Positions 38,248 to 44,937 of a stretch of DNA of 64,000 nucleotides are shown in pieces. Origin of the DNA: an uncultured Naasia sp. (GTDB taxonomy: Bacteria; Actinomycetota; Actinomycetes; Actinomycetales; Microbacteriaceae); assembly GCA_913778905.1 (NCBI GenBank), contig CAJYYA010000018.1:1-64000 (forward strand), given 5' to 3'. The notes under the pieces are model-generated. The model was not told the origin of the DNA, did no database searches, and was given only the letters and a program-made list of their open reading frames with translations. The first letter of the stretch is position 1, and each line of letters opens with the position of its first letter. Made by a program: the position numbers and the translations under genes.

Positions 38248-39207
38248 ATGCCGGACACGTCATCGCGGATGCTCGCCCTCCTCTCCCTGCTGCAGACGCG
38301 GCGGGATTGGGGCGGCGCATCCCTCGCGGAACGCCTGGGGGTGACGCCGCGCACCGTTCGCCGCGATGTGGACCGGCTACGCCTGCTGGGTTACACGATC
38401 ACCGCGGTCCGCGGACCGGACGGGGGTTACCGTCTCGCGGCGGGAACCGAGCTGCCCCCGCTCCTCTTCGACGACGACCAGGCGGTGGCCATCGCGGTGG
38501 CGCTGCAGACCGCGGCCTCGACGGGGGTGGATCTCGGCGACGCTGCGGAACAGGCACTGGCAACGGTTCGCCAGCTCATGCCGTCGCGGCTGCGGCACCG
38601 CGTGGACGGAGTGCAGTTCGACTCGCCCATCGCGCCCGAGCAGGTCGACCCGGCTGCGCTTCAAGCCGTGAGCTCCTCGATCCGCCGCGAACGTGTGCTG
38701 AGGTTCGATTACAGCGTCGAGTCGGAAGGGTACGGCCTTCCTCGCAAGGTGGAGCCTCACGGGCTCGTGTCGCGCGCCGGTCGGTGGTACCTGGTCGCCT
38801 GGGACCTCGAGAAGACGGACTGGCGCCTGTTCCGACTCGACCGTCTGACGCCGAAGTCCCCGGAAGGGGCCCCGTTCGCTCCGCGCGAGATCCCGGGCGG
38901 GAATGCACTGGCCTTCGTCGACTCGATGATGAAAGGGTCCGTCGGGGTTGATCGGTGGCCCGTCTACGGCGATTTCCTCCTCGAGGCGCCGACGTTCCGA
39001 GTCGCTCCCTGGCTCGGTGACGGCGAGATGGAGGCGGTGTCCCCATCGGTGACGCGGGTCCGCGTGGGGTCATGGTCGCCCGCTGGTCTCCTCGCGTGGG
39101 TGATGCGCTTCGATGCGCCCTTCACCGCTCTCGGTCCGGAGGAACTGATCCGGTCCTTGCCGACCATCGCGAACCGTCTTCGCGAGGCGGTTCCGAACGG
39201 GAACTAG
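38248..39207 (+). CDS. WYL-domain helix-turn-helix regulator
   Basis: A 319-residue regulator. The HTH is at residues ~8-60 (RMLALLSLLQTRRDWGGASLAERLGVTPRTVRRDVDRLRLLGY). The WYL domain lies near 145-215 (RWYLVAWDLEKTDWRLFRLDRL, with the W-Y-L core), and a C-terminal extension follows. Such YafY-type factors bind nucleic acid or small ligands. It is divergent to the VOC gene. Its stop overlaps that of the converging histidine phosphatase gene by four bases. Confidence 0.93.
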   Translation: MPDTSSRMLALLSLLQTRRDWGGASLAERLGVTPRTVRRDVDRLRLLGYTITAVRGPDGGYRLAAGTELPPLLFDDDQAVAIAVALQTAASTGVDLGDAAEQALATVRQLMPSRLRHRVDGVQFDSPIAPEQVDPAALQAVSSSIRRERVLRFDYSVESEGYGLPRKVEPHGLVSRAGRWYLVAWDLEKTDWRLFRLDRLTPKSPEGAPFAPREIPGGNALAFVDSMMKGSVGVDRWPVYGDFLLEAPTFRVAPWLGDGEMEAVSPSVTRVRVGSWSPAGLLAWVMRFDAPFTALGPEELIRSLPTIANRLREAVPNGN

Positions 39208-39970: not shown

Positions 39971-39994
39971 AAGTTGCACACTTGTGTGCAACTT
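39971..39994. promoter_or_regulatory. TetR operator: perfect 24-bp palindrome
   Basis: The half-site AAGTTGCACAC is followed by TT and its exact reverse complement, giving a two-fold symmetric 24-base site. It ends 17 bases before the TetR start, so it should overlap the transcription start of the TetR-ATPase-YhgE operon. This is one of the clearest operator sites in the window. Confidence 0.9.
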
Positions 39995-40011
39995 CGACTA
40001 TCCTGACACGT

Positions 40012-40641
40012 ATGACCGCTGCCACACCTCGCGCCCCTCGCCGGGACGCTGCGGCGAACCGCGAGGCGATCCTCTCGGCGGCGCAGCGCCTGCTGGCTCG
40101 CGATCCGGAGACGCCGCTCGACGACATCGTCCGTGAGGCCGGACTGACCCGCCGCGCGTTCTACGGACACTTCCCCACCCGCGACGCGATGAGAGTGGAG
40201 CTGGCCCGATCCGGTGCGGCCCGCGTCGCATCCGCTCTCGTCGACTGCGTTCGAAACGACGCGCGCCTCACCCTCGCGCTCATCTCCGCTCGCCTGTGGA
40301 GCGAGGTCGCCGACGTACTCGCCCTGATCCCGACCACGGTCCGGGGACCACTCAGCGCCGAGATCGCCGAACCCCTCGCCCCGCTTCGCGCCCTGCTGGT
40401 CGAGACTGCCTCGAGAGGAGCGGACGCGGGCGAGATCCGCTCCGACATCGAGGCAGGCGTGCTGGCCCGACTGCTCGAGCAGTCCGCCGTGTCGGCCCTC
40501 GACGAGGCCGGATCCCGCTCGCTCGACTCTCTGCAGGGCCGCCTGCTCGTCATCCGCTCCGTCCTCTCCACCGCCGGGCTCTCCTGGCGCGAGACGGCCG
40601 AATTCATCGCGGCTCACTCCGAGCTGCTCGAGGAGAACTGA
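40012..40641 (+). CDS. TetR-family regulator of the YhgE operon
   Basis: A 209-residue repressor. The HTH is in the first 55 residues (NREAILSAAQRLLARDPETPLDDIVREAGLTRRAFYGHFPTRDAMR), with AFYGHFPTRDAM the typical recognition-helix end. A helical ligand-binding domain follows. The ATG at 40012 fits the family start. Its TGA overlaps the next gene's ATG (TGATG), so it is translationally linked to the exporter genes and likely senses their substrate. Confidence 0.92.
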   Translation: MTAATPRAPRRDAAANREAILSAAQRLLARDPETPLDDIVREAGLTRRAFYGHFPTRDAMRVELARSGAARVASALVDCVRNDARLTLALISARLWSEVADVLALIPTTVRGPLSAEIAEPLAPLRALLVETASRGADAGEIRSDIEAGVLARLLEQSAVSALDEAGSRSLDSLQGRLLVIRSVLSTAGLSWRETAEFIAAHSELLEEN

Positions 40642-41243
40642 TGCGCATCGCCGCCGCCGACATCCGGATCGGCACCGGCCCCGGCGCCGCCCTGCCCGCA
40701 CTCACGGTCGGATTCGCCGCGGGCGACCCCGCGGTCGTTCCCGTCGAGGGCACCCAACGGGCCACCGTCACCGCCCTGGCTCTCGCCGGACGGATGCGCC
40801 TCGACCACGGCACCGTCTTTGTGGACGGGCGCGCCGACGCCGACCTCCTCCGTCGGACGATCGCGGTCGTCGACGCACCGACCGTCTCGGATCCGGCGGA
40901 CGACGTCGCCACCCGTCAGGTCGTCCGCGAGGAGCTCGTGCTCGCGGGGCACAAGGGAGATCGGGCGACGATCACGCGTTCCATCGCCGCCGCACATGCA
41001 GAGGAGTGGACGGACGCCCCGTTCGGCGCCCTTCCCCCCGCGAGTCGCACCCGCCTGCTCGCGAACATCGCGGTCTCCCGCGCCGGCGTGCGCGGGGTCG
41101 TCCTCACCCTTCCCGACCGGCACGGCGGCGACCCGCGCGACCTCCTCCGCCTCATCCACGACCTGAGCGACCGCGGCTTCGCGGTGCTCGCCCTCACCTC
41201 GGCCGCCACGCTCGCGGCGCTCGAAGGACTGGAATCCAAGTGA
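40641..41243 (+). CDS. Degenerate ABC-ATPase-like protein (partner of YhgE)
   Basis: A 200-residue protein with the outline of an ABC ATP-binding subunit but lacking its core motifs. Where Walker A (GxxGxGK[ST]) should be, there is VPVEGTQRATVTALALAG. MRLDHGTVFVDGRADADLLRRTIAVVDAP resembles the region after Walker A in true ATPases. The signature LSGGQ reads GALPPASRTRLLANIAVS, and Walker B with its catalytic Glu is VRGVVLTLPDRHGG. FAVLALTSAATLAAL stands for the H-loop. It probably does not hydrolyse ATP. It overlaps TetR upstream and the YhgE gene (GTGA) downstream. Confidence 0.75.
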   Translation: MRIAAADIRIGTGPGAALPALTVGFAAGDPAVVPVEGTQRATVTALALAGRMRLDHGTVFVDGRADADLLRRTIAVVDAPTVSDPADDVATRQVVREELVLAGHKGDRATITRSIAAAHAEEWTDAPFGALPPASRTRLLANIAVSRAGVRGVVLTLPDRHGGDPRDLLRLIHDLSDRGFAVLALTSAATLAALEGLESK

Positions 41244-43135
41244 CTGTCCCCACGCTCGTCTTCGGTGAGATCCGTCGCCTCGTCGCGACCCCGCTCGCCC
41301 GCCTGGCGTTCGCGGCGCTCATGCTCGTGCCGCTGATCTACGGCGGGCTCTACCTGTGGGCGAACCGCGATCCGTACGGGGCGCTCAACCGCGTGCCCGC
41401 CGCGCTCGTCGTCGCCGACACGGGCGCCACGACCGACGGCAGCACCGTGAACTACGGCGATCAGATCGCCGACAAGGTCCTCGACGGCGCCGACTTCGAC
41501 TGGACGCGGACGAGCGCGGAGGACGCCGCGACCGGGGTCCGTAACGGCGACTACGACTTCAGCATCACGCTGCCCGCCGACTTCTCGGCGGACCTGGTCT
41601 CGGCCTCCACCGACTCGCCGAAGCAGGCACGGATCACACTCACGACCAACGACACCAACAGCTACCTGGCGAGCACCATCGCGGGGCAGGCGGCCGAACG
41701 CATCCGAACGAGCATCGCCGAGCAGGTCGGCCAGGAAGCGGCGGACAAGTTCCTCGTCGGAATCGCCACGATCCGCACCGACCTCGCCAATGCGGCCGAC
41801 GGAGCGACCCGGGTCGCCTCGGGTGTCGACCAGGCCAAGAGCGGCTCGTCGCAACTGAGGACCGGGGCGTCGCAGCTCGCCGACGGTGCGTCGTCCCTGT
41901 CGTCCGGACTCGACCAGCTGCAGTCGGCGACCTCCACACTGCCGGACGACACCGCGCGCCTCGCCGCCGGTGCGCGCCAGGTCGCCGACGGGAACGCCAA
42001 GCTCGCGCAGGGCGGAGCGGAAGCCGTCAAGATCTCAGGACAGGCCGCCGCGGCGGTGCCCACGGTCCGTGCCGACATCATCGCCGCGCTGCAGCAGGCC
42101 CAGGTGCCGCAGGCCGACATCGATGCCGTGCTCGCGAAGCTCGATCCGCTCGGTCAGGCCGTCACCGACGCCGACGCGAAAGTCCAGGCGGTCGACGGAC
42201 AGCTGAACCAGCTCGCGGCCGGCAGCGCCCAGGTCGCCGATGGCGCGGGCGCTCTCTCCTCGGCGAGCGGATCGCTGACCGCGGGGATCGCGTCGGCCGC
42301 GTCGGGCGCCAGCCAACTGTCGGAGGGCGCCGCGACCGCCTCGAACGGGGCCGCACAGCTCGACGACGGTCTCGGCACCCTGTCGACCGGTGCGGGCCAG
42401 CTCCGCGACGGACTGAACTCGGGCGTCGCCGCCATCCCGAATCCGTCCGATCAGTTGCAGAGCGAGCAGGCGGCGACCATCGGATCGCCCGTGGACCTCG
42501 CGACGACCGACGACGCTCAGGCGACGAACTACGGAGCCGGACTCGCACCGTTCTTCCTCAGCCTCGCGGCCTGGATCGGTCTCTACGCACTCTTCCTCAT
42601 CGTCAAGCCGTTGTCCCGCCGGGCGATCACAGCGCTCGCCTCACCGGCGAAGGTGACACTGGCGGCCTGGCTGACCCCGGGGCTGCTGGGGGTCGTGCAG
42701 TCGATCATGCTCGTGACCCTCGCGGGGACCGTGCTGGGGTTCGGGATCGCGAACCCTGCGGGGATGTTCGTCTTCGGAGCTCTGATCTCACTCACCTTCG
42801 CGGCGATTCTGCTCGCACTCAACGCACTGCTGGGCTCGGTGGGACAGTTCCTCGGGCTCGTGCTCATGGTGATCCAGCTGGTCACCGCGGGTGGGACGTT
42901 CCCGTGGCAGACCCTGCCAGAGCCCCTGGCGGCGCTCCACCGCTTCCTGCCGATGAGCTACGCGGTGGACGGATATCGGCACCTCATGTACGGCGGCAAC
43001 CCCTCCGCGGTGCTGATCGACGCGGCGGTCCTCGGCGGCTGGTTGCTGGCGGGCGTACTGGCCACCTATCTGACCACGACCCGGATGACCCGCTTCCGCA
43101 CGCTCCGCGACCTGCGCCCCTCCCTCATCGGCTGA
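41240..43135 (+). CDS. YhgE/Pip-type membrane protein (putative exporter)
   Basis: A 631-residue protein of the YhgE/Pip (phage-infection-protein-like) family, related to ABC-2 permeases. Helix 1 is at residues ~17-38 (LARLAFAALMLVPLIYGGLYLW). A long outer region of about 440 residues follows, with repeated Ala/Gly/Ser/Gln heptads such as GASQLADGASSLSSGLDQLQSA, then five C-terminal helices from FFLSLAAWIGLYALFLIVKPL to LIDAAVLGGWLLAGVLATYL. Start GTG at 41240, overlapping the previous stop. Related proteins export peptides or lipids; the cargo is unknown. A terminator follows. Confidence 0.88.
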   Translation: MTVPTLVFGEIRRLVATPLARLAFAALMLVPLIYGGLYLWANRDPYGALNRVPAALVVADTGATTDGSTVNYGDQIADKVLDGADFDWTRTSAEDAATGVRNGDYDFSITLPADFSADLVSASTDSPKQARITLTTNDTNSYLASTIAGQAAERIRTSIAEQVGQEAADKFLVGIATIRTDLANAADGATRVASGVDQAKSGSSQLRTGASQLADGASSLSSGLDQLQSATSTLPDDTARLAAGARQVADGNAKLAQGGAEAVKISGQAAAAVPTVRADIIAALQQAQVPQADIDAVLAKLDPLGQAVTDADAKVQAVDGQLNQLAAGSAQVADGAGALSSASGSLTAGIASAASGASQLSEGAATASNGAAQLDDGLGTLSTGAGQLRDGLNSGVAAIPNPSDQLQSEQAATIGSPVDLATTDDAQATNYGAGLAPFFLSLAAWIGLYALFLIVKPLSRRAITALASPAKVTLAAWLTPGLLGVVQSIMLVTLAGTVLGFGIANPAGMFVFGALISLTFAAILLALNALLGSVGQFLGLVLMVIQLVTAGGTFPWQTLPEPLAALHRFLPMSYAVDGYRHLMYGGNPSAVLIDAAVLGGWLLAGVLATYLTTTRMTRFRTLRDLRPSLIG

Positions 43136-43218: not shown

Positions 43219-44688
43219 TCAGCCGATCTGTGCGCGGCGCTTGCGCGCGAGCACCAGGGCGGCGCCACCGAGCAGCATCAGCGCACCGAATCCGATGACA
43301 CCCGCGGTCTCGACACCGGTCGACGCGAGCGACGATCCGGTTCCGTTGTTACCAGCGGGCGTGATCGCGCCGGCGGCGACGAGCGAGAAGCTGACGGGCT
43401 CCGACGGGGCGGAGATCTGATCCAGGTCGGTGGGGTTCGCCACCGTGCTCTGGATCGCGATGGCCGTGTAGTTCTCCGGGACGAGGGCGAGCGTGACACT
43501 CCAACGCCCGTCGGCGCCGACGATGATGTCAGCGGCCGGGTCGGCGGGGGTGGGCTCGGCGGCGGCCGACATGCTGTCGCTGCTCTGGGCCGCCTCGAAC
43601 GCCGCGGTGTTCACGACCACGAGTCCGATGTAGGCGCCGGGGATGCCCGTGCCCTCGAAAGTGACCTGGCTTCCTACGACCTGCTGCCCCTCGGTCGGGC
43701 TCGTGATCACGGGAGCGGGGAGCAGAGTCGAGGCGGGGAGCTTGAAGTTCACGGTCTCTTCGCCGCGACCGGCTCCACCGGTGACCTGGTTGATGCTCAC
43801 GGTCTGGTCGATCGCAGCGTCGTCGGCGTAGGTCGCGGTGACGCTCCACGTGCCGTTCGACACGACGGCGGCAGCGGTGCCGGGCAGGCGGTTGCCGTCG
43901 GTGTCGAGGACGTTGACCGTCGAGCCGTTCGTGCCGGTGCCGGTGAAGGTCACGGTGCGGCTGGCGACCGTCTCACCCTCCTCGGGGCTGGTGACGGTGA
44001 AGTTGCCGACCGGCGCGACCGCGGGCAGCGAGAAGCTGACCGTCTGCGAGCCGCGGCCGGCGCCGCCGGTGGTCTGGTTGGCGGTCACGGTCTGCGAGAC
44101 GGCTGCGTCATCGGAGTAGGTGCCGGTGGTCGTCCAGGTCCCGTTCGAGACGACGGCGGCCGACGTTCCGGGAACACGGTTGCCGTCTGCGCCGAGGACG
44201 TTGACGGTCGACCCGTTCGTTCCGGTACCGGTGAAGGTCACGGTGCGGGAATCGCGCACCTCGCCCTGCACGGGAGAGGTGACCGTGAAGTTGTATGCGA
44301 CGGGCAGGTTGAAGTCGACGGAGATCTGGGGGATCCCGCTCCCGCCGTAGAGGCCGCCGACACGGATGGACTGCTGCACTGCGGCGTCCTCCGCGTAGAC
44401 GGGAAGCGTCAGCGAGTAGTTGGTCGGCTGCCCGAAGGTGCCGCCCGGGTTCGTGCGCGCCAAGACGTCACCATCGAGGTCGTAGGCGATGACGGTGGAT
44501 CCGCCGAAGACCGACCCGGTGACGGTCACGGTTCGGGAGTCGACGGTGGAACCCTGTTCGGGCGCGGTGACCGTGAGGCCGGCCGGCGCTGCGGAGGCGG
44601 GAGCGGCTGTGAGCACCGCGCCTCCCAGAACGAGAGCGAGAGCGGCGGGCACGGCGAGTGCCTTCCGCCACGAGGAAGTGCGTGACAA
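43219..44688 (-). CDS. Sortase-anchored cell-wall protein with Ig-like repeats
   Basis: A 489-residue surface protein. Residues 1-34 are a signal peptide (RKALAVPAALALVLGGAVLTAAPASA). Ig-like repeats follow: a divergent one at ~37-130, then two nearly identical ~94-residue copies at ~132-225 and ~228-320 (both with SRTVTFTGTGTNGSTVNVL and TGGAGRG), then one near 322-440. The C-terminus is LASTG at 454-458, a hydrophobic helix and RKRRAQIG, a sortase sorting signal of the LAxTG type used by class E enzymes. The TTG at 44688 has AAGGGG six bases earlier, so it is the likely start. No sortase gene is in the window. Confidence 0.9.
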   Translation of the reverse strand: MSRTSSWRKALAVPAALALVLGGAVLTAAPASAAPAGLTVTAPEQGSTVDSRTVTVTGSVFGGSTVIAYDLDGDVLARTNPGGTFGQPTNYSLTLPVYAEDAAVQQSIRVGGLYGGSGIPQISVDFNLPVAYNFTVTSPVQGEVRDSRTVTFTGTGTNGSTVNVLGADGNRVPGTSAAVVSNGTWTTTGTYSDDAAVSQTVTANQTTGGAGRGSQTVSFSLPAVAPVGNFTVTSPEEGETVASRTVTFTGTGTNGSTVNVLDTDGNRLPGTAAAVVSNGTWSVTATYADDAAIDQTVSINQVTGGAGRGEETVNFKLPASTLLPAPVITSPTEGQQVVGSQVTFEGTGIPGAYIGLVVVNTAAFEAAQSSDSMSAAAEPTPADPAADIIVGADGRWSVTLALVPENYTAIAIQSTVANPTDLDQISAPSEPVSFSLVAAGAITPAGNNGTGSSLASTGVETAGVIGFGALMLLGGAALVLARKRRAQIG

Positions 44689-44937
44689 GTGAGTCCCCTT
44701 GGGTACGTGATGCACAGAAGACGACCACTCCACGACCGACGCCCAGACCGGCGACGCAGAGCGAACGCAGTCGCCAGATCCGACAAGTGTCGGCCTCGGA
44801 GAAGGGTAACGGACACATGTCGTATTGCTATGGGCGTCAGGCGCCTTCCCAGGTTCCATTCGCGCCGATTCGAAATCGTGCCCCGGAAGCCCCCGGATTG
44901 CATTGCATATGTGAAACTCATTTGCATGAAAGAAACA
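44689..44937. other. Divergent intergenic region between the surface protein and the SAH-hydrolase-like gene
   Basis: About 250 bases holding both promoters. It has a small AT-rich patch from about 44898 with TTGCAT repeated (CATTGCATATG, then CATTTGCATG) directly before the SAH-hydrolase-like start. This could be a regulator site for the IclR protein encoded downstream, but no clean palindrome is visible. Confidence 0.4.

Follow-up and report, generated by a model that had tools for sequence, protein, structure and literature searches.

What drives a YhgE/Pip protein whose own ATPase-like partner has lost the catalytic motifs of an ATPase? The question is posed by a three-gene locus in a stretch of 64,000 nucleotides (contig CAJYYA010000018.1, positions 1 to 64,000; hereafter the window) from an uncultured Naasia sp. 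of the Microbacteriaceae, whose genome comprises 3.2 Mb in 23 contigs. YhgE/Pip proteins are widespread; some act as receptors for phages of lactic acid bacteria, the family is related to EsaA of type VII secretion, and to our knowledge their energy source is not settled. At this locus, three + strand genes with overlapping reading frames encode a TetR-family repressor of 209 amino acids (aa; 40012..40641), a protein of 200 aa (40641..41243) and a YhgE/Pip protein of 631 aa (41240..43135). An initial annotation, made from the sequence of the window, had likened the middle protein in outline to ATP-binding cassette (ABC) ATPases and had noted that their catalytic motifs were gone. Here, sequence comparisons and structural models establish for this protein the fold of an ABC nucleotide-binding domain (NBD), the loss of the motifs, purifying selection and a pairing with YhgE, and for its surroundings an ABCG-type membrane fold and a conserved operator. 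The 200-aa protein is very probably a conserved NBD-fold partner of YhgE that lacks catalytic motifs, and we refer to it as the pseudo-NBD.

An ABC fold without catalytic motifs

Taken alone, the 200-aa protein matches no Pfam or NCBIfam model over its cut-off, and the single-protein Pfam scan holds no ABC match. Comparison at the level of the family gives a different result. In a comparison of hidden Markov models (HMM-HMM), the family profile aligns with an alignment of four ABC ATPases over 183 columns (hhalign 95.5%, E 1.4e-8), a 61-row alignment of the relatives matches ABC ATPases of the PDB (best E 8.6e-5), and ABC_tran, with E values of 1 or lower accepted, picks up 4 of the 61 members (best 7.3e-4). 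The AlphaFold2 model of the protein (mean predicted local distance difference test, pLDDT, 93.3; predicted template modelling score, pTM, 0.89) forms a complete ABC NBD. With this model Foldseek returns ABC ATPases from E 2.9e-11, and VIA-align superposes 197 of the 200 residues on LptB (Z 16.6, root-mean-square deviation, rmsd, 4.2). Judged by profile and model, the protein belongs with the ABC NBDs in both fold and descent, as the initial annotation had supposed. It shares fold and profile relation with LptB, EcfA, CcmA and other ABC NBDs, and differs from them in having no Walker A, LSGGQ or Walker B Glu and a conserved PDRHGG instead. A reading of no ABC relation, to which the sub-threshold single-protein scans (Resolvase at 0.041) would have pointed, was overturned by the family profile and the fold. 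Resolvase was dismissed as an identity although 16 of the 61 members match it with E values no higher than 1 (best 8.9e-4): the fold over the full length is that of an ABC protein, and in the window protein the match is confined to residues 145-187.

At the places of the catalytic motifs the family carries other residues, several of them invariant. The Walker A position (residues 35-42, VEGTQRAT; 40743..40766), located by alignments of which the hhalign one is off by one residue, has neither the Gly-rich loop nor the Lys, and the commonest family string there is ETEQRPT. What appears from the alignment to be the Q-loop position (residues 78-80, DAP; 40872..40880) holds D78 and A79, both invariant in 61 sequences. 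The signature (LSGGQ) position, placed by alignments and hhalign, reads GALPPASR (residues 129-136; 41025..41048), R136 being invariant in the same 61. At the position of the Walker B Glu and the D-loop stands PDRHGGDP (residues 158-165; 41112..41135; in the window within LTLPDRHGGDP), which is identical in 61/61 aligned sequences and makes up, as a contiguous run, eight of their 23 invariant columns (start Met included). When the set is widened to 100 distinct sequences, P158, R160, H161, G162 and G163 are kept in 100%, D159 in 94%, D164 in 95% and P165 in 98%. Among the 155 distinct domain sequences that score at least 60 bits, the window included, P[DESH]R is found in all 155 and PDRHGG in 126.

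None of these 155 sequences contains Walker A (G-x4-GK[ST]). An LSGG string occurs in two of them and an hhhDE string in five, in every case away from the signature or Walker B place, and the window protein has neither the signature nor the Walker B Asp-Glu. The motif loss first noticed in the window protein thus extends to the motif places of the entire set. The missing residues suggest that the pseudo-NBD would neither bind nor hydrolyse ATP.

The ratio of nonsynonymous to synonymous substitution rates (dN/dS), estimated in 20 pairs picked by hand, is 0.037-0.314 for the pseudo-NBD, beside 0.039-0.283 for TetR and 0.026-0.358 for YhgE. Two YhgE pairs at 31-33% identity lie near 1 (L066-L082, 1.03; L062-L092, 0.93), and these evidently set different copies of YhgE against each other. 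The low ratios, together with the conserved replacement motifs, indicate at the sequence level that the pseudo-NBD is under purifying selection and is maintained rather than decaying.

Relatives are found well beyond the genus. A single-sequence search at E up to 1e-3, own genome included, matches 5 of 9 genus genomes and 199 of 398 family genomes; the weak matches, at about 1e-5 to 1e-3, may in part be ABC proteins of other kinds. A profile search of the order matches 114 of 396 genomes at 1e-5, and the scores listed fall into two groups: 74 matches reach at least 68 bits, and the remainder stay at or below 40. Kribbella and Demequina have family members, as do several families of the order. 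Relatives at ~30% identity are encoded on two Arthrobacter plasmids; one of the two is labelled 'ABC transporter ATP-binding protein', and a label of this kind can hide a pseudo-NBD. A protein 100% identical to the pseudo-NBD is encoded on a public contig labelled 'uncultured Curtobacterium sp.' (L035).

The pairing with YhgE proposed in the initial annotation proved general. A total of 175 loci score at least 60 bits, some being near-duplicates and the window itself being counted repeatedly. In 173 of them YhgE is encoded downstream in the same orientation, and the two exceptions (L014, L067) sit at the end of a contig. In 114 of the 175, a relative of the window TetR is encoded no more than 2.5 kb from the NBD-like gene. 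In the window the TetR stop and the pseudo-NBD ATG overlap by 1 nt (40641), and the pseudo-NBD stop and the YhgE GTG by 4 nt (GTGA, 41240-41243), so that a single transcript with translational coupling is likely, in keeping with the tight, coupled frame described earlier; the operator just upstream is conserved in relatives.

YhgE and its NBD-like partners

The window YhgE scores over the cut-off with both halves of the YhgE/Pip family, TIGR03061 (1.3e-53; 181 against 96.15 bits) and TIGR03062 (1.2e-58; 198.1 against 102.2 bits), and is set apart within that family by its dedicated pseudo-NBD partner. Homologues of the Pip family include ABC-2 superfamily proteins (PMC3924187). Among the matches listed in the open-licence literature, taken by title and start of abstract, no description of an NBD-like partner of YhgE/Pip was found.

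In the AlphaFold2 model of YhgE (pLDDT 81.9, pTM 0.57), from which the presumed transmembrane (TM) helices were read, a short helix is followed by TM1, a long insert, TM2, a short helix (460-466) and more presumed TM helices. The insert, nearly 400 residues between TM1 and TM2, is largely helical (helical 144 to 415). The modelled membrane part resembles ABCG2 over 190 residues (Z 17.2, rmsd 2.6), and its best 50 structural rows are ABCG, Pdr5/Cdr1 or ABCH proteins, three of them titled just 'ABC transporter'. The PDB profile search with YhgE and most Foldseek rows yielded coiled-coil matches, which were discarded, and the membrane-part match alone was used. The loop after presumed TM2 (residues 457-469, PLSRRAITALASP; 42608..42646) places the short helix, by alignment and model, where a coupling helix would be, and its P457, S459, R461, A462, A465 and P469 are invariant in 45 sequences. 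The model thus combines the two membrane features of the type V (ABCG-like) fold, a matching membrane domain and a short helix where the coupling helix is expected; as to the catalytic NBD of that type, the stretch from TetR to YhgE contains no NBD-like frame apart from the pseudo-NBD. In contrast to ABCG, PDR and ABCH proteins such as ABCG2, the window system has its NBD-like part as a separate gene without catalytic motifs, and its membrane protein carries the long insert.

Other actinobacterial YhgEs pair with NBD-like proteins in which catalytic motifs are lost by degrees. Of nine lower-scoring order matches (L176-L184), eight lie beside YhgE. L176-L178, L180-L182 and L184 keep the P-loop (e.g. 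GRAGSGKT), have no LSGGQ and carry Asp for the Walker B Glu; L183, beside YhgE, is the tail of an MmpL protein without a P-loop, and L179, the one match with no YhgE next to it, is an ABC ATPase. In large genomes of one family (f21), seven YhgE partners read GPSGSGRT or GPSGTGRT, that is, Arg for Lys. At the same place Kribbella proteins have GYPGAGHV or GYPGPGHV, and relatives nearer the window family have GHGHT, GPGHV or QDQRT. Counted over a 94-row alignment, the P-loop Lys column holds K 14, R 39, P 22, H 13, Q 4 and A 2. A tree of 94 rows picked by hand (quick method, midpoint root) puts 55 window-family and intermediate rows, none with Lys, on one side of a branch with a Shimodaira-Hasegawa-like approximate likelihood ratio (SH-aLRT) of 99. 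At its motif place LSGGQ is absent from all 29 members of the other YhgE-linked clade, 14 of which have GK[ST], and from all 33 MmpL tails, L229 being counted in both sets. This graded series suggests that signature and Glu were lost first and the Lys later.

In other YhgE loci, one of them in this genome, a degenerate NBD forms the C-terminal tail of an MmpL/RND (resistance-nodulation-division) pump, whereas no frame between or upstream of the genes of the window operon encodes an MmpL. The second YhgE of this genome lies on another contig (G000:C3:50500-59500; locus L231, 3308-8244, - strand). There an MmpL-type frame is upstream of YhgE and overlaps it, and the C-terminal tail of 238 residues is a degenerate NBD. 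MmpL directly precedes YhgE in 25 of 40 Microbacteriaceae loci, which were picked by hand with a preference for long frames and second copies, and are thus a non-random part of the known places. A stricter count over 41 family YhgE frames finds 22 after an MmpL with a detected NBD-like tail, two after an MmpL without one (L278, L292), 11 after a stand-alone NBD-like gene and six with nothing detected, one of which (L297) does have an MmpL in the other count. The corresponding figures for a phylum sample of 52 YhgE frames, from which L230, L231 and L255 are left out as belonging to the family, are 1, 0, 12 and 39. Most loci around relatives of the pseudo-NBD span 4 kb on each side, a range beyond which an MmpL would be missed, and frame lengths are measured from stop to stop and are not gene lengths. 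Open frames of 1469-1832 aa had raised the idea of an MmpL-NBD-YhgE triple fusion, which was rejected, as MmpL and YhgE are in different frames.

All but one of the tails are recognizably NBD-like. The tail scores all derive from a database of 33 sequences, of which 32 are hit by the NBD-like profile; L229 (234 bits) helped to build that profile, and the other 31 score 21-112 bits. The L292 tail gives no match to this profile, and that of L278 scores 36 bits alone and is not matched in the combined database. GK[ST] is kept in three tails (L229, L264, L265), and the P-loop of L229 is intact. A protein-similarity search with the MmpL tail of this genome returned itself as the sole match in 199 family genomes, which suggests that the tails diverge fast; they were hence located via YhgE.

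Several other arrangements of these genes were seen. The tails at L264 (2479-5496, + strand; GPHRSGKS) and L265 (1714-5283, + strand; GEHRTGKS) are without the middle part of the NBD, helical and signature. At four Leifsonia loci (L041, L055, L077, L078) an MmpL-YhgE pair, at about 1-6.5 kb of the locus, lies directly upstream of a TetR-pseudo-NBD-YhgE set, leaving two YhgE systems side by side. Tandem YhgE gene pairs occur at L232, L234-L245, L247 and L248 (families f35, f42 and f56) and at L270 (own family); they have no detected NBD-like gene directly adjoining and mostly a different loop after TM2, and possibly form heterodimers. Near the NBD-YhgE pair of six Cryobacterium loci (L062, L071, L072, L086, L092, L098) and one of Microterricola (L038), a second YhgE stands on the opposite strand, and these loci are without a P0002-like TetR.

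The role of the pseudo-NBD

We lean towards an ABCG-like exporter in which a pseudo-ATPase NBD subunit is docked on the coupling helix of YhgE and acts in assembly or gating. The operon would then specify a TetR-repressed ABCG-like (type V/ABC-2) half-transporter split over two polypeptides, YhgE being the membrane half with its long helical insert and the 200-aa protein an NBD subunit turned pseudo-ATPase with a scaffold or coupling role. A dimer of the pseudo-NBD would dock on the YhgE coupling helix and set the assembly or gating of the YhgE dimer, supplying no energy by ATP hydrolysis; export, if active, would be driven by a gradient or another partner. An inducer, probably a substrate, would free TetR from its operator, upon which expression of all three genes would rise. 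Of the two roles offered in the initial annotation, that of a regulatory or assembly subunit seems to us the most economical; the other, a move to a different energy source, may have taken place, and the MmpL/RND pumps with a degenerate NBD tail beside other YhgEs make it testable.

Docking at the coupling helix is consistent with the retention of R461 in 59 of the 60 YhgEs encoded after a stand-alone NBD-like gene, as compared with 17 of 45 without a detected partner. A number of observations weigh against the assignment. R461 is kept in just 20 of 28 YhgEs after MmpL, and P457 and R461 jointly in 42/60 after a stand-alone NBD-like gene, 8/28 after MmpL and 6/45 without a detected partner. 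The comparison is moreover confounded by phylogeny, because most YhgEs without a partner are tandem pairs from other families. The frames without a detected NBD-like neighbour, 39/52 in the phylum sample and 6/41 in the family sample, imply that YhgE as a family needs none nearby. Finally, the YhgE model reaches a pTM of just 0.57, and a missing Walker A is no proof against nucleotide binding.

One alternative is a ligand sensor, in which the remodelled site (D78, R136, PDRHGG) would bind a nucleotide or small ligand unhydrolysed and serve as an allosteric gate for YhgE. Invariant polar residues at the old catalytic places are in its favour, as mere decay would be less uniform; however, there is no Gly-rich loop, and the Lys position is Ala in the window protein and mostly Pro in the window family, so that we hold such a sensor to be improbable. 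About equally unlikely, in our judgement, is that the NBD-like part is a mechanical adaptor from a proton-driven MmpL to YhgE, the window operon using an MmpL in trans. The frequent placement of MmpL before YhgE in the hand-picked family loci, the match of 31 of 32 tails to the NBD-like profile once L229 is excluded, the MmpL-YhgE pair on another contig of the same genome and the neighbouring pairs in Leifsonia all point that way, as does Saccharopolyspora hirsuta, in which YhgE/Pip F1721_04135 and MMPL F1721_04140 are both listed among the cholesterol-raised genes (PMC9782250, Table 3). Yet the window operon itself has no MmpL, the family sample is non-random and the phylum sample has an MmpL at 1 of 52 frames, the L292 tail is without a match and the L229 tail has an intact P-loop.

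The pseudo-NBD also invites comparison with heterodimeric ABC exporters with a degenerate site, which likewise contain an NBD with lost catalytic residues. Those exporters keep one working site, whereas beside YhgE there is no working NBD and Walker A is lost too. It appears very unlikely that YhgE is powered by a canonical ABC ATPase from another locus, with the pseudo-NBD filling one of two NBD places. Exporters with one degenerate site are known (PMC7756269, PMC12038006), but no second NBD-like frame lies between TetR and YhgE, the signature needed to complete a partner's site is missing from the pseudo-NBD as well, and a single membrane half is encoded, for which a homodimer is simpler. 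A decaying relic of an ABC ATPase is scarcely credible: motif loss is indeed graded across lineages, but dN/dS stays at 0.04-0.31, 23 columns are invariant, synteny holds in 173/175 loci and members are spread over several families of the order, Kribbella and Demequina. Neutral decay was rejected on the invariant columns and dN/dS.

A broader history can be put forward tentatively, as possible rather than probable. Actinobacterial YhgEs would be exporters of the ABCG type that have given up ATP; their NBD lineage would have lost signature and Glu, then the P-loop, and become a mechanical adaptor, often grafted on an MmpL/RND tail with the RND motor driving an ABC-type gate; the window form would act alone or with MmpL in trans. 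The conserved dead NBD that travels with YhgE, the intermediates from intact to lost P-loop and the MmpL fusions make the question of an ATP-driven exporter directly testable, and they provide a natural series for an ABC transporter that loses its ATPase motifs while its architecture is kept.

The repressor, its operator and adjoining genes

The repressor has the TetR_N domain (PF00440, 5.9e-8, over cut-off) and, as expected of its family, a palindromic operator nearby. The operator, AAGTTGCACAC-TT-GTGTGCAACTT (39971..39994), lies just upstream of tetR. It had been called a perfect 24-bp palindrome; it in fact consists of 11-bp perfect arms around a TT centre and is self-complementary at 22 of 24 positions. 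With that correction, four parts of the interpretation from which we set out, the ABC relation, motif loss, YhgE pairing and a TetR/operator module, are supported by profiles, model, the 155 sequences and synteny. The site is far from a chance occurrence: with up to 3 mismatches permitted, 100 shuffles gave no match. A P0002-like TetR preceded by 250 bp or more of sequence is present in 73 loci, near-duplicates included; in these, TTGCAC-N6-GTGCAA ahead of the TetR gene is exact in 57, has one mismatch in 13 and two in 3, against 3-5 in control stretches, and the exact site occurs nowhere else in the 456,653 bp of those loci. In 37 loci without this TetR type the site is not found within 1.5 kb upstream (best 3-5 mismatches). 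The genome of the window holds the operator site exactly once, and one other place with one mismatch; given this single exact copy, TetR most likely controls solely this operon. A sigma-70 scan found no promoter-like site, for which reason the putative -10 element TATCCT (39999..40004, + strand), 7 nt before the tetR ATG, was read by eye; its position suggests that the tetR transcript may be leaderless.

Two genes to the left of the operator, both named by eye, are a regulator of WYL-like make-up (38248-39207, + strand) and a histidine-phosphatase-like gene (39204 to ~39880, - strand), described as transcribed away from it. To the right of YhgE, a convergent frame (43219-44859, - strand) encodes a surface-like protein of 546 aa with what by eye are similar repeats and a C-terminus of LASTG, a hydrophobic stretch and KRR, resembling a sortase anchor.

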